Origin: a virus
Direction: 5' to 3' (one strand)
IMG/VR virus record: IMGVR_UViG_3300040751_002789
Coordinates: 1-29,841 of that record
DNA: 29,841 nt
Shown piece by piece: positions 8,122 to 21,264 of the stretch. How positions within the stretch are numbered: the first letter of the stretch is position 1; every line of letters begins with the position of its first letter. The notes beneath the pieces are model-generated. The model made no database searches. It saw only the letters and a program-made list of their open reading frames with translations, and was not told where the DNA came from. The position numbers were made by a program, and so were the translations under genes.

Positions 8122-8196
8122 TGGTAGCCCGTAGGAGAATCGAACTCCTGTTGCATGGATGAAAACCATGTGTCCTAACCACTAGACGAACGGGCC
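8122..8196 (-). tRNA. tRNA-Glu (anticodon UUC)
   Basis: Read on the minus strand it folds as a full cloverleaf of 75 nt with encoded CCA. The acceptor stem pairs GGCCCGT with ACGGGCT (first pair G-U), discriminator A. The anticodon arm is CATGG-TTTTCAT-CCATG, giving UUC for GAA codons. The T-arm contains GTTCGATTC. It lies immediately downstream of the terminator of the putative structured RNA. Confidence 0.95.
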
Positions 8197-12526: not shown

Positions 12527-12603
12527 TGGTCGGAGTAATAGGATTCGAACCTATGACCCTCTGCTCCCAAAGCAGATGCGCTACCAGGCTGCGCTATACT
12601 CCG
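12527..12603 (-). tRNA. tRNA-Pro (anticodon UGG)
   Basis: Full cloverleaf on the minus strand, 77 nt with encoded CCA. Acceptor CGGAGTA pairs TACTCCG, discriminator A. Anticodon arm TCTGC-TTTGGGA-GCAGA gives UGG, reading CCA. T-loop GTTCGAATC present. Confidence 0.95.
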
Positions 12604-12607
12604 GATT

Positions 12608-12695
12608 TGGCGGAGAAGGTGAGATTCGAACTCACGGAACCTTTCAGTTCGCAGGTTTTCAAGACCTGTGCATTCAACCACTCTGCCACTTCTCC
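12608..12695 (-). tRNA. tRNA-Ser (anticodon UGA)
   Basis: 88 nt with encoded CCA, acceptor GGAGAAG/CTTCTCC, discriminator G. Anticodon arm CAGGT-CTTGAAA-ACCTG gives UGA. The long variable arm expected of a class II serine tRNA is present. Confidence 0.95.
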
Positions 12696-12702
12696 TACTA
12701 CT

Positions 12703-12778
12703 TGGTAGGACTGGGTGGAGTTGAACCACCGACCTTCCGCTTATAAGACGGATGCTCTAACCATTGAGCTACAGTCCT
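12703..12778 (-). tRNA. tRNA-Ile (anticodon UAU)
   Basis: 76 nt with encoded CCA. Acceptor AGGACTG pairs CAGTCCT, discriminator A. Anticodon arm TCCGT-CTTATAA-GCGGA gives UAU for the AUA codon, which is rare in many bacteria but common in AT-rich phages. Confidence 0.93.
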
Positions 12779-12783
12779 ATATT

Positions 12784-12870
12784 TGGTGCCTCGAGTCGGA
12801 ATCGAACCGACAAGCTCTTACGAGCGAGAGATTTTAAGTCTCTTGTGTTTACCTATTTCACCACCGAGGC
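12784..12870 (-). tRNA. tRNA-Leu (anticodon UAA)
   Basis: 87 nt with encoded CCA, class II with a long variable arm. Acceptor GCCTCGG pairs with TCGAGGC (one G-U). Anticodon arm AGAGA-CTTAAAA-TCTCT gives UAA for UUA codons. Confidence 0.95.
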
Positions 12871-13887: not shown

Positions 13888-13895
13888 TATAAATA
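13888..13895 (+). promoter_or_regulatory. Late promoter TATAAATA at the head of the curli-like island
   Basis: Perfect T4 late box. With the box at -13 to -6, +1 falls on 13901, the A of the first ATG of the island, so the primary transcript should start with the start codon. It ties the island to late transcription with the structural genes. Confidence 0.82.
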
Positions 13896-13900
13896 ACGGT

Positions 13901-14197
13901 ATGGAAGAAATATTTCAACTAATATCTGACGTTGGTTTACCTATTGCTGGCGCTCTTACAATGGGATTCTTTATATTCATTATTATTAAGCAAATCTTTG
14001 AAGGAATTATTGATAACATTGGTACACTAACAATGTTTGCCGAATCATTAGAGAACCGAGCAAGGACAATGTCCAATGAGATGGTCAAGATTGACCTTCT
14101 TGTTTCGAGTGCCTTAGGGTTAAACCCGGATATTGAAAGAGTAGCTCGCGCTGAAAATTTTGTTGAAGACGGAAAAGTTGACGTAAGAAGAGATTAA
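13901..14197 (+). CDS. Small single-pass membrane protein, 98 aa (holin-like?)
   Basis: Residues 8-33 form a hydrophobic helix (VGLPIAGALTMGFFIFIIIK), followed by an amphipathic region with FAESLENRARTMSNEM and an acidic C-terminus. ATG at 13901 is chosen; an upstream TTG at 13871 would precede the late promoter. The topology (N-terminal membrane helix, helical cytoplasmic tail) resembles small phage holin-like or spanning-adaptor proteins, and the next gene has the same plan. It may be an inner-membrane partner of the secretion genes downstream. No family recognised. Confidence 0.7.
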   Translation: MEEIFQLISDVGLPIAGALTMGFFIFIIIKQIFEGIIDNIGTLTMFAESLENRARTMSNEMVKIDLLVSSALGLNPDIERVARAENFVEDGKVDVRRD

Positions 14198-14201
14198 AAT
14201 A

Positions 14202-14474
14202 ATGGACATTGCGAATTTAGTTAATGAGTACGGATTTCCTGCTGTGATGGTGGTAGGACTTGGGTACTTTGTATATTTTGTTTGGAGGTTTGTAAACGAC
14301 AAGCTTCAGCCGGAAATTGATAAGCAACACATGGCTTTGATTAGGTTAATTGATAGAATGAGAATGCTTGACCAAGATCTTATAAGATTACAACAAAAGG
14401 TTGATGTTGTTCTTAAGTATAAAGAAATAGAAGAATTGAAGAAAAAAGGTGAGAAAGATGGACAACAAGACTGA
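14202..14474 (+). CDS. Small membrane protein with coiled-coil tail, 90 aa
   Basis: A hydrophobic helix at about residues 10-31 (YGFPAVMVVGLGYFVYFVW) is followed by a long charged helix with a coiled-coil pattern (RLIDRMRMLDQDLIRLQQK). The layout resembles BhlA/UviB-type holin-like peptides, but the position before csgF makes a secretion-linked role equally possible. It starts 4 nt after the previous stop and overlaps the next ATG by 17 nt. The first 30 residues of this protein and of its upstream neighbour look alike (G-(L/F)-P before the helix), suggesting duplication. Confidence 0.72.
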   Translation: MDIANLVNEYGFPAVMVVGLGYFVYFVWRFVNDKLQPEIDKQHMALIRLIDRMRMLDQDLIRLQQKVDVVLKYKEIEELKKKGEKDGQQD

Positions 14475-14970
14475 TAAAGCTTTATTAGGAATAGGTTGGG
14501 TTATTGTAATAATGTATCTGTTTTTAGCAGCAGGTAAAGCATACGGAGAACCTATCGTACATAAGTTTAAAAATCCAAGTTTCAGCGGTGTTGGAACTGG
14601 TGCTCATTATCTCACTATCGAGAATCAAGAACATACAAGAAAGAAAGCAATCAGAGATGCATTAGATGCAGCTGAACGTGCAGCACAAAGAGAATTGGAC
14701 AATTCAACGTTATCAAAGTTTATAAGAAACCTTGAGAGTAGAATTTATGCTCAGTTAGCAAAACAGTTGGTGGACAATATGTTCTCTAACGATAACGCAG
14801 TAAGGTTTGGATCTTTTGTTTTAGAAGGTTCAACAGTAACATATGAAGTTATTACAAATGCAGACGGTACAGAATTTATTAAGATGACAATTGTAGATGA
14901 AGATGGTACGACAACTGTTATTGAGATTCCGATAGGAACAGGAAACTTTGGAAGCGATCCAAATGGCTAA
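14458..14970 (+). CDS. csgF: Curli assembly factor CsgF-like protein
   Basis: 170 residues (E. coli CsgF is 138). CsgF binds the outer lip of the CsgG pore and couples secretion to amyloid nucleation. Matching parts are HKFKNPSFSG at residues 35-44 (the CsgF FxNPxFGG element that inserts in the pore), STLSKFIRNLESRIYAQLAK at 83-102, and the C-terminal beta segment FGSFVLEGSTVTYEV followed by MTIVDEDGTTTVIEIP. A hydrophobic signal segment spans residues 9-29. ATG at 14458 follows AAGGTGAG; the GTG at 14449 is less likely. It overlaps csgG by 8 nt. The match is in motif order rather than close identity, but the csgG neighbour makes it firm. Confidence 0.85.
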   Translation: MDNKTDKALLGIGWVIVIMYLFLAAGKAYGEPIVHKFKNPSFSGVGTGAHYLTIENQEHTRKKAIRDALDAAERAAQRELDNSTLSKFIRNLESRIYAQLAKQLVDNMFSNDNAVRFGSFVLEGSTVTYEVITNADGTEFIKMTIVDEDGTTTVIEIPIGTGNFGSDPNG

Positions 14971-15907
14971 ATTATTATCCGCACTCCTCTCAACATTAAT
15001 TTTAGCAAGTTGTGCGCAAATGCCGCAGTGGTCAGAAGGACCTGCGAACTGTGAATACGGTGAAGGTAAGTATGCGCAAGGATTTAATAAAGTTAGAGAT
15101 GAAAATGGAGATGGCTTAGTAATTGATAAAATCAAAACAGGTACTCGTAAATATATTGAGACAAAACAAATATGTGTAGAGCAACCTGAAGTTGTAAAGT
15201 TACCTTCATACATTGATTTACTGAATTTACCACCTGCAGAAAATATGCCTGTGGTTGCTGTTTACAATTTTATAGATAAAACAGGACAAAGAAAAGATTC
15301 ACAGACAGGACAAAGTTTTTCAACTGCTGTGACTCAAGGTGGAACAGAATTATTAATAGACGCTCTGAAAACAGCAGGTGGGGGAACTTGGTTTAGAGTT
15401 GTAGAAAGACAAGGGATTGATGCTCTTGTTAGAGAAAGACAGATTATTCGTTCAGGTCGTGATGAAGCGGCGAAGAAACTGGGCGAAGAACCAAAAGGTG
15501 TTGGACCTTTATTATTCGCAGGAATGATTATTGAGGGCGGCATCATAGGTTATGATAGTAATGTAAAGACCGGAGGCCGAGGAGCTAGAACTTTAGGTAT
15601 TAGCTTTAGCCGTCAGTATCGTCAAGATGTAGTCACAGTATCTGTGCGTGCAGTTTCGGTTCTTACAGGTGAGATATTATTAAATGTCCAAGCAAAGAAA
15701 TCAATCTTGAGCTACGGTTCAGGAGGAGACGTCTTCCGCTTTATAGAGCAAGGTACTCAATTGATTGAATATGAGGACGGGATTGGAAATAATGAGAGTG
15801 TGACATATGCAGTACGAACAGCAATTGAAGCTGCAGTACTAGAGATGGTATACCAGGGCGACGAACGTGGCTTCTGGACTATTAACAATAAAATAGAGGA
15901 AGAATAA
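14963..15907 (+). CDS. csgG: Curli secretion channel lipoprotein CsgG
   Basis: 314 residues (E. coli CsgG is 277). CsgG is a nonameric outer-membrane lipoprotein pore that exports curli subunits. Residues 1-17 are a lipoprotein signal with lipobox LASC, Cys17 being the lipidated residue. The core carries the family signatures: VVAVYNFIDKTGQR (97-110), WFRVVERQGIDALVRERQII (143-162), IIEGGIIGYDSNVKTGGRGA (189-208, a pore region hallmark), QDVVTVSVRAVSVLTGEIL (221-239) and KKSILSYG. Compared with E. coli there are about 60 extra residues between the lipid anchor and the core, containing two further Cys (30 and 71). All core elements are intact, so a functional channel is expected. It overlaps csgF upstream and by one base (TAATG) the curlin gene downstream. 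Confidence 0.95.
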   Translation: MAKLLSALLSTLILASCAQMPQWSEGPANCEYGEGKYAQGFNKVRDENGDGLVIDKIKTGTRKYIETKQICVEQPEVVKLPSYIDLLNLPPAENMPVVAVYNFIDKTGQRKDSQTGQSFSTAVTQGGTELLIDALKTAGGGTWFRVVERQGIDALVRERQIIRSGRDEAAKKLGEEPKGVGPLLFAGMIIEGGIIGYDSNVKTGGRGARTLGISFSRQYRQDVVTVSVRAVSVLTGEILLNVQAKKSILSYGSGGDVFRFIEQGTQLIEYEDGIGNNESVTYAVRTAIEAAVLEMVYQGDERGFWTINNKIEEE

Positions 15908-16641
15908 TGAAAAGAATATTAGGCCTATCTTTATTATGTTTATTCTCTTTCAACAATGTAGCATTCGCACAAGCGACTGACGATAATGAAATCAACATCG
16001 AACAAGATGGTGATACTCTTACTTTGTATATCGACCAATATGGTTACGGTAACAAAATTGGGTTAGATGATTTTTCGTCAAGCTCAAGCGCTATGCCAAT
16101 TACAGGTTCATCGTTAACTTTTAACATTGACCAAATTGGTAACGAAAACTTATTATTCGGAACATACATAGGTGACAGTACAACTGCTAACTTATTATGG
16201 ACTGGAGATTCTAACATTTGGGATTGGAACGTAGGTTATGTTGGTTCATCGGATAGTTCAACATTTGATGTTGACTTTACTGGTGATTCTAACACTATGG
16301 ACTTTGACCAAGGTTATAATGCAAGTGCTGAAAGATTAGATTTTGATTTAACAGTTATTGGAGACAGTAACATTTTTGATGTCGACATTGATGTTGACGA
16401 CGCAATTTGGAATTTTGATATTACTGGTGGAAGTAATAATATCAAGACATTACAGAAAGACGGAGCGGAGCATGAAATTAACGTGACTCACGTTGGTTCT
16501 TCTGCTGATATTGATATTAACCAAATCAGTGGTACTTGTCCAACAGGTGTAACTACTTGTAATGGAATAATCACTTTGGACATAGATTCTGAAAATGCGA
16601 CAATTCAAATTAATCAGAAAGACAGTTCAAACGATTCGTAA
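15907..16641 (+). CDS. Exported curlin-like repeat protein, 244 aa
   Basis: A Sec signal peptide (residues 1-22, ending AFAQA) is followed by eight or so repeats of about 22 residues alternating hydrophobic and polar positions with Asn/Gln/Gly/Asp turns, e.g. INIEQDGDTLTLYIDQYGYG (30-48) and later GDSNIWDWNVGYVG, GDSNTMDFDQGY, GDSNIFDVDI. This is the pattern of CsgA/CsgB curlin amyloid repeats, more acidic and aromatic than E. coli CsgA. Cys211 and Cys218 form a possible disulfide near the C-terminus. As the gene is coupled to csgG (TAATG), the product is the likely cargo of the channel. Whether it is the fibre subunit or the nucleator cannot be told from sequence. Confidence 0.82.
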   Translation: MKRILGLSLLCLFSFNNVAFAQATDDNEINIEQDGDTLTLYIDQYGYGNKIGLDDFSSSSSAMPITGSSLTFNIDQIGNENLLFGTYIGDSTTANLLWTGDSNIWDWNVGYVGSSDSSTFDVDFTGDSNTMDFDQGYNASAERLDFDLTVIGDSNIFDVDIDVDDAIWNFDITGGSNNIKTLQKDGAEHEINVTHVGSSADIDINQISGTCPTGVTTCNGIITLDIDSENATIQINQKDSSNDS

Positions 16642-17764
16642 TTTAATTCTGTGTTCGACACTGCTACTACTTTCGGGAGTGGCATTGTCGAGCTCGGATC
16701 CAATTGGAGCAATCGTTGAACATAAAGGTTCAGCTTCTTTAATTAGAGAAGCAGGTGAAGAGCTTGTTGTTTCTAGTGCATTTGTTCCAGAAGTTGAAAT
16801 GAACGACACAGCCGAAACTGAGAATGGCCGAATGCTTATTCAGTTCCTTGATAAAGCAGAACTCAGTTTAACAGAAAACACAAAAGTATACATAGACAAA
16901 GTATACTACGACCCAGATCCAAGTAAATCAAAAATGACAATGCGTATGGCATTAGGCACAGCTCGATTTGCGTCTGGTCGTTTAGGAATGGTCAATAAGA
17001 ATAACATTGACATTTCAACACCCACGGCAACAGTATCAGTTCGTGGAACAGATTTCACAACAACCATTGATGAGTTAGGAAGATCACTTGTAATACTCTT
17101 GCCTGACCAATATGGTAATCCTTCAGGTAGTATAGAGGTATCAAATCTTGGTGGTACAATTACCTTAGATGAAGCTTATGCTGCTACGATGGTAAGTAGC
17201 TTAGATACTCCTCCCACAAGACAAATTCAAATGCAAGGTATTACTCCTGCTATGATTGATAATATGTTTATTGTATCACCACCTCCTGAAGTGAAAGAAG
17301 CTATTGAGGAAGAATTGGCAGATGACGCAAATAAAGACCAAGGTTTGCTTGATATAGATTTCTTAGAGTTTGATGGATTAGATATTGATTATCTTGAGGA
17401 TGATGCATTAGAATTTACAGAGCTTGATATTGATTATCTTGATGTTGATTTTTTAACAGATGTATTGGACGTGGTTGAAGAATTAGTTAAAACAACAGTC
17501 AAGCTTGATGATAGTGCAATATCAGGTAGTTCGTTAGGAGCAGAATTACGTGGAGCAACTTTTGGATTAAATTCAGATTCACAATATAATATATTTGAAC
17601 AAAGCGGTAGAATAATATTCTTTAGAAACGTAGATGGAATTATACAAATTTCGTTAGCATCCGACGCATCCGTAAAGATTGACACTTCAGTTGACGGATA
17701 CGAAGGAATCATTGACCTTAACCAAGGGCAAAACTCTATTATTATAATCAGACAAGGAGGATAA
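16595..17764 (+). CDS. FecR-domain exported protein with acidic repeats, 389 aa
   Basis: An N-terminal signal or anchor (residues 14-33) leads to a FecR-type domain (about 38-160): KGSASLIREAGEELVV, then MLIQFLDKAELSLTENTKVY, then the hallmark TPTATVSVRGTDFTT at 142-156. FecR domains sit in the periplasm and relay or scaffold signals; they often accompany CHASE2 cyclases in bacterial operons. Residues 251-292 are short acidic repeats of the type L-D-I-D-(F/Y)-L, and the C-terminal 80 residues look curlin-like (IIDLNQGQNSIIIIRQGG). It overlaps the curlin gene by 47 nt. ATG at 16595 has no clear ribosome site, so translation is probably coupled. The repeats could bind calcium, but that is speculation. 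Confidence 0.8.
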   Translation: MRQFKLIRKTVQTIRNLILCSTLLLLSGVALSSSDPIGAIVEHKGSASLIREAGEELVVSSAFVPEVEMNDTAETENGRMLIQFLDKAELSLTENTKVYIDKVYYDPDPSKSKMTMRMALGTARFASGRLGMVNKNNIDISTPTATVSVRGTDFTTTIDELGRSLVILLPDQYGNPSGSIEVSNLGGTITLDEAYAATMVSSLDTPPTRQIQMQGITPAMIDNMFIVSPPPEVKEAIEEELADDANKDQGLLDIDFLEFDGLDIDYLEDDALEFTELDIDYLDVDFLTDVLDVVEELVKTTVKLDDSAISGSSLGAELRGATFGLNSDSQYNIFEQSGRIIFFRNVDGIIQISLASDASVKIDTSVDGYEGIIDLNQGQNSIIIIRQGG

Positions 17765-17767
17765 ATA
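17760..17767 (+). promoter_or_regulatory. Possible internal late promoter (GATAAATA)
   Basis: Matches NATAAATA with one change from the T4 box. Predicted +1 is 17773, the A of the next ATG, the same geometry as at 13888. It overlaps the upstream stop and sits next to the ribosome site AAGGAGG at 17754-17760, which would serve longer transcripts. Confidence 0.35.
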
Positions 17768-17772
17768 ATATT

Positions 17773-18558
17773 ATGAAAGACGAAAATGAAAAAAGAGCGT
17801 GGGAGATGTTTCGTAAATCAATCGGCCCACACATTTGGACTAGTAATGATTTATTCGTATTCTTTGGAATAGGATTGTTATTTGGTATTTTAATGACCTT
17901 ACCGTTAGTTGCTTTAGCAGATAATCTTATTACTATGGAACAGACAGGTGATAATCTAAATTTAGAGATTCAGCAATACGGTGCTGATAATGAAGTTAAA
18001 ATGTTAGACCAATATTCGTATATCAACGCATCGTCACTTGATTTATTAATTGTTCAGTATAATAACGAAGGAAATGATAATACGATTGTGTTTGATGAAA
18101 TCAGTGGAACAGGTAATGAATTTAAATTAGGTCAAGGTGTTGCTTTTGATAATACCACACAAGGTTGGAATTATAATGGCGCTGAAGGTGGTGGTCATTA
18201 TATGGAAATAGATTTATATGGTAATGATAACCACCTTCAGTGGCATCAAACAAATCAAACCGGTGCAACCGACGGACATGATTTTAACTTACATGTTGCT
18301 GGGTCTGATAATTGGATAGATGGAAGACAACAAGATTCAGGTGCAAAAGAAGCAAACATTACACTTTACAATTCAGACAATACTTTAACGTTCAGACAAA
18401 AAGGCACTAACGCAAACCACACAGCAAATATTACTTTAGACGGTATTTACGGAACGGATGCGCTTATCAGACAATTGGGTACAACCAATCAAACATATAA
18501 CTTATCAGTGGATTGTTATACAGTTGGTGGTTGCTCAGTAAGTGTGTTACAAGAATAA
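17773..18558 (+). CDS. Second exported curlin-like protein, 261 aa
   Basis: A long positively charged N-region (residues 1-27) precedes a hydrophobic core and a probable signal cleavage near LPLVALADN (44-51). The mature part has curlin-like repeats of about 22 residues: MEQTGDNLNLEIQQYGADNE, later DLYGNDNHLQWHQ, VAGSDNWIDGRQQ, LYNSDNTLTFRQKG, with a (G/S)-(D/N)-(D/N/S)-N turn each time. Cys248 and Cys254 lie near the C-terminus, at the same place as the Cys pair of the first curlin-like protein. AAGGAGG lies 12 nt before the ATG. It is probably a second CsgG substrate; the two proteins could act as the major and minor fibre subunits. Confidence 0.8.
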   Translation: MKDENEKRAWEMFRKSIGPHIWTSNDLFVFFGIGLLFGILMTLPLVALADNLITMEQTGDNLNLEIQQYGADNEVKMLDQYSYINASSLDLLIVQYNNEGNDNTIVFDEISGTGNEFKLGQGVAFDNTTQGWNYNGAEGGGHYMEIDLYGNDNHLQWHQTNQTGATDGHDFNLHVAGSDNWIDGRQQDSGAKEANITLYNSDNTLTFRQKGTNANHTANITLDGIYGTDALIRQLGTTNQTYNLSVDCYTVGGCSVSVLQE

Positions 18559-18564
18559 TGCAAG

Positions 18565-20610
18565 ATGCTTAAGCAATTAACAAAATGGTGGACTGTTTTA
18601 ATAACTATCACAGGCTTTGCTCTTTTATCAATAAATAATCCGTCAATAGTTCAAAGTATAGAGTATGCATATTATGATTCACTACAGCAGAATAAAGAAA
18701 AAGAGATTGTTGAAGAAATTGTCCTCGTCAACATCGACGAACGAGCAATCTCTGCCGAAGGTCAGTATCCGTGGCCTCGTGGTTCTGTTGCTGATTACAT
18801 ACGGAACGGTCCTGGCGACAGCTTATATGTTCTTAACGTAATATACTCTGAAGAAGATAGATTTAAAGAAGATCATTTACTCGCAGAAGCAATGGCAGAA
18901 AAAGCTGTTGTATTATCTTCTGCTCCCACTCAACAAACATCAGATGGAGTTGGCACCTTTGTAGGTGTTGCTACTTTCGGAGAACAAAATGAAAATTGGC
19001 TTTATAAATTCCCAGGGCTTTTATTCCCTATTGATGCTCTCAGTTCTTGGGCTTTTGGTGTTGGTGCCACCGTTGCTATCCCTGACCAACCCACCGGCGT
19101 CGTGCGAAGAGCTCCTTTGGTTATCAATGCAAATGGATTACAGTACCCCAGCTTGGCACTTGACACCCTTCGAGTGTACACAGGAGAACCAAGCTATCAA
19201 ATGAAAGTAGGCTCTAATGGAGTTGAATGGGTACGAATAGGAAAGCAAGATCCTATCACAACAAATAGTTTTGCTGAAATACCAATTGCCTTTTGGAATC
19301 AATTTCCATCGCAGTCAATAACAGAACCATTACCTAGTGGTAAAGTTTTAGTATTTGGAATAACCGCAGAAGGCTATTCTAATCCAGTACCAACCCCAAC
19401 GGGTGCAATGTATCCCCACGAAGTTCAAGCCCAGTTAATTCAGACCGTCCTCTCAGGCGTTCAAATAACGATTCCCGACTGGAAGCCAATATTTGAGCTT
19501 TTCTTTCTGGTCCTAGTAAGTCTAGGAATCCTTGTAGCGGTCTATGTTTTTCCCATAACTCTTGGGGTGATAACGAGTCTTCTTCTCGTTGGTTCCGGAT
19601 ACGGAGTGAGTCACTGGTTTTGGACTTCCTCATTAACCTTTGTTGATGCATCTTTGGTTTCATTAGCTTCCTTAGTGGTTTTTGCACAATCTTCATTCAA
19701 CAAATACTATTTAACATTTTTGGAGAAACGCGAAATCATGAAACAGTTCGCTGGTTATTGTTCTCCAGAAGTGGTTACTATTTTACAACAAAATCCTTCA
19801 CTTGTCAAGGACGGAATGAAAAAAGATGTAAGTATTGTATTCTCGGATCTTCGAGGATTTACTCCTTTAGGCGAAAGCTTTGGAGATGACGTTAAAGGAC
19901 TGACTACATTGATGAATGGTTATATGGATGCCATTACACAACCTGTTCTAGATGCAAATGGAATGATTATCAAATACATTGGAGACGCAAGTATGCATAT
20001 ACATAATGCTCCAATGGAAGATACCGACCACGCTAAAACTGCGGTGATGACTGGTATTAATATGTTACGAGCGGTAGAGAAATTTAATGAAGAGATTATT
20101 AAACAAGGTAGACCACCCATTGGTATGGGTGCTGGCATCAATAGCGGTCTTGGTTATGTTGGTGAAATGGGAAGTACATCACGACACAGTTACGACATTC
20201 TTGGAGATGCAGTATCAACTGCTGCAAGAATCGAGTCTAAATGTAAAGAATACGGATGTTTACTTTTATTAGGAGAAGAAACAGTTAGGAGATGTAATCC
20301 TGAAGAATTCCTTTTCTTAAAAGTAGATGATCTTGCTGTAAAAGGAAAATCAGTAGGAGTTGGTATATACACTGTACTAGACCTTAATAAAGATAAATAT
20401 ATTAAACCAGCAGAGATGCACGAAGCAATGCATTCAAATTATCAGAAACAAAATTTTGATAAAGCAATAAAAATATGTAATGACCTTATGGGTTGCTTTG
20501 AAGGACAAATGCAAGGTTATTACAAAATGTGGATTGAGCGTTGTGAATATATGAAAACGCAAGATCTGCCGAGGAACTGGGATGGAATTTTTATCGCGAC
20601 GACTAAGTAG
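18565..20610 (+). CDS. CHASE2-domain membrane adenylate cyclase, 681 aa
   Basis: An N-terminal membrane helix (about residues 8-24) is followed by a periplasmic CHASE2 sensor (30-305; hallmark IVLVNIDERAI, YPWPRG, later GKVLVFGIT), three helices (308-375) and a class III nucleotide cyclase domain (420-605). Metal-binding Asp428 (FSDLRGFT) and Asp474 (KYIGDA) are present. Lys470 and Asp544 match the adenine-selecting Lys/Asp pair, so cAMP is the expected product. Arg555 (transition state) is present, but the Asn normally four residues before it is Ser551 (GDAVSTAAR). A short helical tail follows. Cyclases are very unusual in phages. Its place after the FecR and curlin genes suggests it senses the periplasm or the secreted material. 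It overlaps the next gene by 29 nt. Confidence 0.92.
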   Translation: MLKQLTKWWTVLITITGFALLSINNPSIVQSIEYAYYDSLQQNKEKEIVEEIVLVNIDERAISAEGQYPWPRGSVADYIRNGPGDSLYVLNVIYSEEDRFKEDHLLAEAMAEKAVVLSSAPTQQTSDGVGTFVGVATFGEQNENWLYKFPGLLFPIDALSSWAFGVGATVAIPDQPTGVVRRAPLVINANGLQYPSLALDTLRVYTGEPSYQMKVGSNGVEWVRIGKQDPITTNSFAEIPIAFWNQFPSQSITEPLPSGKVLVFGITAEGYSNPVPTPTGAMYPHEVQAQLIQTVLSGVQITIPDWKPIFELFFLVLVSLGILVAVYVFPITLGVITSLLLVGSGYGVSHWFWTSSLTFVDASLVSLASLVVFAQSSFNKYYLTFLEKREIMKQFAGYCSPEVVTILQQNPSLVKDGMKKDVSIVFSDLRGFTPLGESFGDDVKGLTTLMNGYMDAITQPVLDANGMIIKYIGDASMHIHNAPMEDTDHAKTAVMTGINMLRAVEKFNEEIIKQGRPPIGMGAGINSGLGYVGEMGSTSRHSYDILGDAVSTAARIESKCKEYGCLLLLGEETVRRCNPEEFLFLKVDDLAVKGKSVGVGIYTVLDLNKDKYIKPAEMHEAMHSNYQKQNFDKAIKICNDLMGCFEGQMQGYYKMWIERCEYMKTQDLPRNWDGIFIATTK

Positions 20611-21211
20611 TTTATTACTAGGATTGCTTTTATTAGCAGTTCCAGTCTCAGGCTTTGTTCCAACGGACCCATTTATTTCTGAACTCTCAGAAGCACGAAA
20701 AGAACTTATTAGACTAGGACATACAGCTCCTTACAATCAATTAACAGCACAAAGAGTCGTTGTTGGTAAAGCAAGAATAATGTCAAATGGTGCAATTATT
20801 AATTTACCTCATGGTCCTGAGTTTGTTCCTACACTCAATCAATTACGATACGACCCAAAATGGCAAGTAAAAGAAGAACACAATTTTACAATAGACCACT
20901 GGACTGAAAGAGAAAAACGAATGATAGATATTTTATTTTTCTCTTCTCAAATACTTGATGTCTATTCAACTTATCGTGGATTAAAATATGATTGTATAAG
21001 CGAAGCAAATCCATTACTACCAAAAGTACCTGAGATACATGAAATGATAGGAATAAAACTTTTTGTTATTGGTGGACTTGGTGCTTTGTCATCTGATGAT
21101 GAAAATTTTTGGTATGGATGGAAACTTGCCTCAGGTTTAACAACAGGTGCAGTTACAGTAAATAACTTTAGGCTTTTAAGAAAAGCGCAAAGGCGCTGTC
21201 AAAGAAGATAA
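20582..21211 (+). CDS. Exported or membrane protein, DUF5658-like, 209 aa
   Basis: A signal-like segment at residues 9-24 is followed by about 85 polar residues and a C-terminal membrane part (about 115-195). The motif QILDVYSTYRGLKYDCISEA with NPLLPKVP resembles the D-x-x-(S/T)-T...E-x-N-P-L pattern of the DUF5658 family of small membrane proteins, function unknown. It is the last gene of the island, with its start inside the cyclase gene (29-nt overlap), so the two are probably expressed together. The final codons contain a small GC hairpin, AGCGC/GCGCT at 21184-21197, without a T-run. Confidence 0.72.
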   Translation: MEFLSRRLSSLLLGLLLLAVPVSGFVPTDPFISELSEARKELIRLGHTAPYNQLTAQRVVVGKARIMSNGAIINLPHGPEFVPTLNQLRYDPKWQVKEEHNFTIDHWTEREKRMIDILFFSSQILDVYSTYRGLKYDCISEANPLLPKVPEIHEMIGIKLFVIGGLGALSSDDENFWYGWKLASGLTTGAVTVNNFRLLRKAQRRCQRR

Positions 21212-21236
21212 AAAAAGGTGGCCTATTTTGACCACC
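21210..21236 (-). terminator. Rho-independent terminator of the minus-strand operon, also a plus-strand hairpin
   Basis: Seven-base-pair stem GGTGGCC (21217-21223)/GACCACC (21230-21236, one G-U) with a 6-nt loop. On the minus strand it is followed by seven T (21216-21210), a strong terminator. On the plus strand only CTTCTT follows, so it may slow rather than stop transcription of the island. Confidence 0.85.
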
Positions 21237-21264
21237 CTTCTTACCGGTTTGGATTGCACTCAGG

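Follow-up and report, generated by a model that had tools for sequence, protein, structure and literature searches.

Why would a phage carry genes for curli-type secretion next to genes for a FecR-domain protein and a CHASE2-domain nucleotide cyclase? This question is raised by a run of nine plus-strand genes (positions 13901-21211) in a 29,841-base virus record (IMG/VR IMGVR_UViG_3300040751_002789, positions 1 to 29,841), the whole of which is referred to here as the window. Since 2020, curli genes of unclear function have been known from phages that infect highly abundant marine bacteria. The left end of the window encodes T4-type structural proteins (tail sheath, tail tube, portal and major capsid). 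In a comparison of window bases 1-24000, the nearest named records by DNA are the isolates Melnitz and HTVC008M, matched via the capsid gene.

We tentatively interpret these genes as a curli-type (type VIII) secretion module that the phage carries, expresses late and couples to an envelope sensor. Late in infection, CsgG and CsgF would export beta-solenoid repeat proteins and tether them on the surface of the infected cell. A periplasmic FecR protein would sense secretion or the state of the envelope and set the CHASE2 cyclase, and two small membrane proteins, t and T, may form an inner-membrane part. The benefit would probably be a changed cell surface, which could block superinfection or retain sibling cells. 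This interpretation draws on profile matches, conservation of the gene block, a late promoter, a C-terminal pattern shared by FecR and curlin-like proteins and the fit of FecR to a PupR domain. It also draws on the occurrence of FecR beside CHASE2-cyclases in bacteria, a five-gene order found in one bacterial metagenome-assembled genome (MAG) and the expression of viral curli genes in metatranscriptomes, as described in passages of PMC9599517 (2022).

Gene content of the operon

The nine genes overlap or nearly do so, and minus-strand blocks lie on both sides. The operon opens with t (13901..14197), which encodes a 98-amino-acid protein that by eye has one hydrophobic stretch and then a coiled-coil-like tail (phrog_18771, E 4.4e-23), and with its 90-amino-acid paralogue T (14202..14474; phrog_18771, E 3e-26, and alignment). 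These are followed by genes for CsgF (14458..14970; Pfam accession PF10614, E 1.5e-16) and the outer-membrane secretion pore CsgG (14963..15907; Pfam accession PF03783, E 4.6e-52), which has a lipobox-like LASC by eye. Next come curlin-repeat protein 1, a predicted beta-solenoid (15907..16641; Curlin_rpt, Pfam accession PF07012, E 2.7e-5), a FecR-domain protein (16595..17764; Pfam accession PF04773, E 1.1e-9), curlin-like protein 2 (17773..18558) and a CHASE2 sensor with a Ser-type class III nucleotide cyclase (18565..20610; Pfam accessions PF05226, E 1.1e-29, and PF00211, Guanylate_cyc, E 5e-17). The end gene, e (20582..21211), has a weak match to DUF5658 (Pfam accession PF18902, E 3.5e-5, 24.9 bits against a cut-off of 25.2). 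A terminator-like hairpin of 13 pairs, called on the minus strand, lies at the operon end (21211..21242).

A first-pass annotation, made from the letters and open reading frames (ORFs) of the window, had named these genes and placed them in one operon. Both proposals are borne out by ORF spacing, by the minus-strand flanks and by Pfam matches to CsgF, CsgG, the first curlin, FecR, CHASE2 and class III cyclase. Of its two curlin-like proteins, the first is supported in Pfam; the second matches Curlin_rpt at E 0.01, under the family cut-off, and is tied to the first via a local hidden Markov model (HMM) built on curlin family 1 (E 1e-11).

A CsgG profile built from the window, Melnitz and HTVC008M matches solved CsgG at E 4.7e-63; for CsgF, a three-row profile gave no hit to a solved chain at 0.01. 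Curlin_rpt matches 30 of 36 aligned curlin 1 members at E 0.01. The loop just before the conserved STAV motif of CsgG (14963-15907) differs from that of Escherichia coli in the profile alignment, and pore gating may differ. A 1,499-base record named Salmonella phage S.Kent 1-2-1 (OR851715.1) matches CsgG at 41.6% and is possibly host DNA.

An exact octamer, TATAAATA, which we take to be the T4 late promoter consensus, lies at 13888..13895 on the plus strand, its first base 13 bases before the first ATG. The octamer is not more frequent than chance in the window as a whole (4 found, 3.24 expected). Its position is conserved in relatives, and the late promoter proposed in the first-pass annotation stands. 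Scanning from 90 bases upstream to 45 bases inside the longest ORF, we identified the octamer at the first gene in 80 of 145 distinct regions of phage loci, 39 of them at -13, against a shuffled expectation of 1.9%. In the same scan it occurs at CsgF in 13 of 146 regions (shuffled rates 1-3%) and is near these shuffled rates at curlin 1 (3/140), curlin 2 (7/123), the cyclase (4/127) and the end gene (2/57). None was found at T (0/149), CsgG (0/140) or FecR (0/141). The octamer precedes the first module gene in Melnitz; in HTVC008M it precedes CsgF, not t.

The minus-strand block upstream contains four clustered tRNA genes (Pro, Ser, Ile and Leu; 12527-12870) and a separate tRNA-Glu gene (8122-8196). 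A sigma-70-type promoter with a perfect match (12/12, spacer 17; 13264-13236, minus strand) reads into this block.

Earlier descriptions of the gene set

The window module is an already-known pelagiphage gene set. Passages of PMC9599517 describe pelagiphage podoviruses with CsgF, CsgG and CsgA/B. One or two ‘histidine kinases’ always come before these genes and FecR comes after them, frequently with a further CsgA/B and an adenylate cyclase behind it. According to the same passages, Myoviridae pelagiphages also have type VIII secretion system (T8SS) genes accompanied by FecR and cyclase. The annotated records of HTVC008M and Melnitz contain CsgF, CsgG, CsgA/B, FecR, a second CsgA/B and the cyclase in the same order. 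We therefore reject novelty of the gene combination. The first-pass annotation had been mistaken in treating a cyclase and a FecR protein as not seen with phage curli genes; the full set, whose earlier description it had named as grounds for abandoning its proposal, is present in these isolates and in the passages of PMC9599517.

Functional ideas have also been published. CsgF and CsgG were described in pelagimyophages, with ‘sibling capture’ proposed, in passages of PMC7029224 (2020), and a gated pore in lysis was proposed for Melnitz CsgGF in passages of PMC9004378 (2022). Our literature search found no direct functional test of the curli module and no paper joining CsgG, FecR and CHASE2. 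The word CHASE2 is absent from the main texts of the three pelagiphage T8SS papers (PMC9599517, PMC7029224 and PMC9004378), and the passages of these papers considered here mention neither swapping of domains nor a survey of receptors in hosts. The present additions concern t and T, an operon in Hyphomonas, cyclase domain swaps and a survey of host receptors.

Conservation of an eight-gene block that includes t and T

For each query we kept the 80 best viral loci, out of 453, 100 and at least 575 relatives; contigs recur between query sets, and one locus is HTVC008M itself. Completeness was counted in loci with enough flank, namely 41 of 80 for the CsgG query, 34 of 80 for the cyclase query and 39 of 78 for the t query. 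All eight core genes are present in 41/41, 30/34 and 39/39 of these loci, respectively. Among the incomplete cyclase-query loci, the second curlin is called as family 1 in L114 and is uncalled in L143, L149 (a 17.8-kb locus) has only a curlin, FecR and the CHASE2-cyclase, and L160 has only the cyclase and t/T. The t/T genes remain beside the cyclase even in loci with altered order or strand. The module is kept as a unit across the sampled related phage contigs, and t and T belong to it.

Gene order varies at the t/T end. In 13 loci (L102, L104, L107-L110, L132-L135, L157, L160 and L161), t/T do not precede CsgF and are found mostly behind the cyclase, often inverted. The CsgF-to-curlin block is itself inverted in L102, L104 and L110, which suggests two transcripts.

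The t/T proteins are 84-116 amino acids long in aligned rows and look like a single hydrophobic helix followed by a coiled-coil-like tail. The C-terminus of t reads D-[AV]-R-[RK]-D in 12/12 aligned rows and in 28/30 dereplicated sequences. Pfam matches of 32 t/T members are weak: the commonest is TM140 (9/32, best E 0.0014), and YvrJ is matched by 6/32 (best E 0.084). A match to the holin family phrog_4898 (E 0.12-0.27) is not significant. Searched against the PDB, a t/T profile gave weak matches, mostly to coiled coils (best E 0.025).

Judging from their position, t/T appear to be the published ‘HK’ genes before CsgF. The ‘histidine kinase’ position in the podoviruses described in passages of PMC9599517 is the t/T position here, and t/T differ in having no kinase signature. 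We reject a histidine kinase identity for t/T: the proteins are 84-116 residues long, and Pfam searches with 32 members returned no kinase family up to E 1. A search for podophage portals over 32 virus records found none, as well as no podophage copy of t/T, and is uninformative because no control gave a signal.

The FecR-domain protein

The FecR protein consists of an N-terminal signal-like helix, a FecR signalling-domain fold, an acidic LDxD[FY]L linker and a C-terminal beta region. In a predicted structure (mean predicted local distance difference test score, pLDDT, 81.3), residues 68-226 superpose on the cell-surface signalling domain of PupR (Z 15.8, root-mean-square deviation (rmsd) 2.4 over 136). 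Residues 34-133 fit the cell-surface anchoring domain of 5ix9 less strongly (Z 9.7, rmsd 2.2 over 74). The linker, at about residues 248-295, is modelled with low confidence; its repeated LDxD[FY]L motifs are conserved across phages.

FecR and the curlin-like proteins frequently end in a strand-like hydrophobic-x-hydrophobic-x-Gln pattern. It is present in 70/73 FecR, 64/66 curlin 1 and 67/87 curlin 2 sequences (shuffled 3-8%) and was not found in CsgF (0/57), t (0/30), T (0/58) or e (0/44).

Bacterial counterparts

We examined the best 80 of 258 loci from bacterial genomes and judged 11 of them, by the presence of t/T or by phage-like scores, to be phage contigs binned into MAGs. These phage-like contigs (L164-L169, L171-L174 and L187) were binned into MAGs with the names Flavobacteriales, Synechococcus, Rhodobacteraceae, Sphingobacteriales, Pirellulales and others; bin names are no guide to the host.

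Hyphomonas sp. TMED17, an alphaproteobacterial MAG, encodes CsgF, CsgG, a curlin, FecR and a CHASE2 cyclase in one run on a 705 kb contig (L170). It is the only one of 69 bacterial loci with this core at E 1e-3, a count that depends on HMMs seeded on three phages, which can miss divergent bacterial FecR proteins or cyclases, and that includes some loci cut by contig ends. Its neighbour genes look by eye like those of an ordinary bacterium. No t/T family member was matched in this genome, in a search in which no control gave a signal. Across the order (299 genomes searched, 34 with CsgF), Hyphomonas sp. TMED17 alone has a CHASE2 match adjoining CsgF; fragmented contigs could hide others. This operon is a counter-example to the statement, in passages of PMC9599517, that FecR and cyclase are outside bacterial T8SS operons.

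Two observations concern the origin of the Hyphomonas operon. Its CsgG forms a long branch inside the phage clade (support 98/81), and the whole group stands apart from 36 other bacterial rows (100/97). The operon resembles its flanks in GC content (0.48-0.53 against 0.52-0.57), an argument against its having arrived recently from a phage of low GC.

The partnership of FecR with CHASE2-cyclases extends to other bacteria, as the first-pass annotation had stated. A FecR-domain ORF lies within 2.5 kb of 10 of the 39 alphaproteobacterial CHASE2-cyclase loci counted (40 best-scoring places fetched), and passages of PMC9239204 describe CHASE2-cyclase/FecR clusters in Campylobacterota. In the family of Hyphomonas sp. 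TMED17, phage-type FecR was identified in 3/105 genomes (TMED17 included), and all three copies adjoin a CHASE2/cyclase ORF. These clusters resemble the phage module in that a CHASE2 class III cyclase adjoins a FecR-domain protein. They differ in that no phage-type CsgF or CsgG was matched beside the cyclases in the 40 fetched alphaproteobacterial regions, and in that 39 of 41 cyclases, the Hyphomonas locus included, have the catalytic Asn and none has Ser (two are unreadable).

Cyclase types and domain swapping

The active-site columns of the window cyclase contain D428, K470, D474, D544 and R555, and Ser551 takes the place of the catalytic Asn. We take the canonical roles in this family to be two metal-binding Asp, a base-binding Lys and Asp, an Arg and a transition-state Asn. 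Among 178 cyclase sequences, redundant contigs included, 106 have Asn (one of them, L052, without a metal Asp), 65 have Ser and seven are cut short. Dereplication left 71 rows, typed by alignment column as 49 Asn and 22 Ser. Of the two isolates, Melnitz has the Ser type and HTVC008M the Asn type.

The two domains of these proteins have different histories. On the catalytic-domain tree, the Ser type is a single clade (support 100) and needs one change. On the CHASE2 tree, the Ser/Asn type needs eight changes, all eight forced by well-supported branches. This disagreement points to repeated domain swaps. Consistent with this, 21 Ser-type rows have a median identity of 80.2% in their catalytic domains and 35.9% in their CHASE2 domains. 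The window is 69.4% identical to L020 in CHASE2 and 40.5% in the cyclase domain, against 34.8% and 74.8%, respectively, for the isolate Melnitz. The trees are quick and have long branches (L170 groups with L171), and some of the swaps could be artefacts of chimeric contigs from metagenomes; the comparison of the Melnitz isolate with the window and L020 is independent of metagenome-contig chimerism.

These patterns raise the possibility, which we regard as unlikely, that the cyclase has a mobile cassette as its output domain, the Ser-type clade having been swapped repeatedly onto distant CHASE2 sensors and working in hosts without a CRP-type cyclic AMP (cAMP) receptor.

Weighing the explanations

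Several observations weigh against a secretion module joined to an envelope sensor. The export and amyloid steps are inferred from sequence. The AlphaFold2 model of curlin 1 is a beta-solenoid (mean pLDDT 87.2) for which Foldseek returned no match at E 0.001, and fold comparison retrieved general beta-helices up to Z 17.7 and did not single out CsgA (fibril chain 8enq, Z 11.1, rmsd 8.8 over 109), so that the repeat proteins are candidate amyloids only. FecR as a curlin homologue is rejected (hhalign probability 3.9), and their common C-terminal pattern is thus not a sign of homology. The module has CsgG, CsgF and curlin repeats in common with bacterial curli operons and adds FecR and the CHASE2-cyclase; unlike those operons, it has no Pfam match to CsgE or CsgD among its nine proteins. 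CsgE is described as not essential for curli in passages of PMC7029224, and passages of PMC9004378 report no clumping with Melnitz.

The proposed signalling step meets difficulties of its own. The window cyclase is without the catalytic Asn, and low activity would be expected from an Asn-to-Ser change. We surveyed 147 genomes from the family of a Pelagibacter MAG (G352), taken as the SAR11 family via locus L173. A cyclic nucleotide monophosphate (cNMP)-binding domain was identified in 9/147 genomes and was without a match in 138/147. A class III cyclase was matched in 3/147 genomes (two over the family cut-off) and was without a match in 144/147. No cNMP-binding domain was found in 10 phage records (0/10). 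If the host is SAR11, cAMP acting via CRP is unlikely, as 138/147 family genomes have no cNMP-binding domain. Together with Ser551 and the phage records, this makes the first-pass proposal that the module reports to cAMP doubtful for such a host.

The same genes could instead form a lysis device. CsgG, with or without CsgF, would then work as a gated pore in the outer membrane, or as an analogue of a pinholin, and make the envelope collapse on cue; t/T would be its holin-like partners in the inner membrane and the cyclase its timer. This extension of the pore-in-lysis idea in passages of PMC9004378 seems improbable to us. It fits the late promoter, the one-helix look of t/T, their weak resemblance to YvrJ (6/32) and to a holin PHROG (E 0.12-0.27) and their presence with the module in 39/39 t-query loci with room. 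It leaves two conserved repeat proteins and CsgF unexplained; moreover, the holin matches are not significant, TM140 is the commonest weak match of t/T (9/32, best E 0.0014) and the Hyphomonas genome yielded no t/T (in a search where no control gave a signal). CsgG might also stay open as an uptake or permeability pore that feeds the infected cell, an idea present in passages of PMC7029224 and PMC9599517. We consider such a pore quite improbable: it would suit an operon with no CsgE among its nine proteins, but the retention of CsgF, curlins, FecR and cyclase as a block would have no explanation.

Two further alternatives concern the sensor genes. The cyclase could be a cyclic-nucleotide weapon or decoy, its product disturbing host defence or ATP pools with no receptor signalling. 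The scarcity of cNMP-binding domains (138/147 family genomes without) and class III cyclases (144/147 without) and the swapping of catalytic domains agree with such a role, to which we nevertheless give a low probability, as a constitutive enzyme would have no need of the CHASE2 sensor and FecR partner that are kept. FecR could alternatively regulate the module by iron, as suggested in passages of PMC9599517; the protein does contain a FecR domain. As in FecR-type anti-sigma factors of iron signalling, a periplasmic FecR domain is matched here; unlike in those systems, none of the nine operon proteins matches an anti-sigma N-domain, a sigma factor or a FecA-type receptor up to E 1. FecR adjoining a CHASE2-cyclase recurs in bacteria. 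On these grounds we reject iron regulation by FecR as the leading interpretation and regard it as highly improbable.

Implications

Seen as a conserved eight-gene block with a built-in sensor, a formerly vague set of auxiliary genes can be tested for which proteins leave the cell, which signal is perceived and which molecule is made. The bacterial five-gene core, the exchanged catalytic domain and likely hosts mostly without the usual receptor sharpen these questions further. If the output domain of the cyclase is indeed such a cassette, the phage would bring a whole second-messenger circuit, with an altered product, rate or receptor, that couples a curli-type pore to an infection-stage switch.

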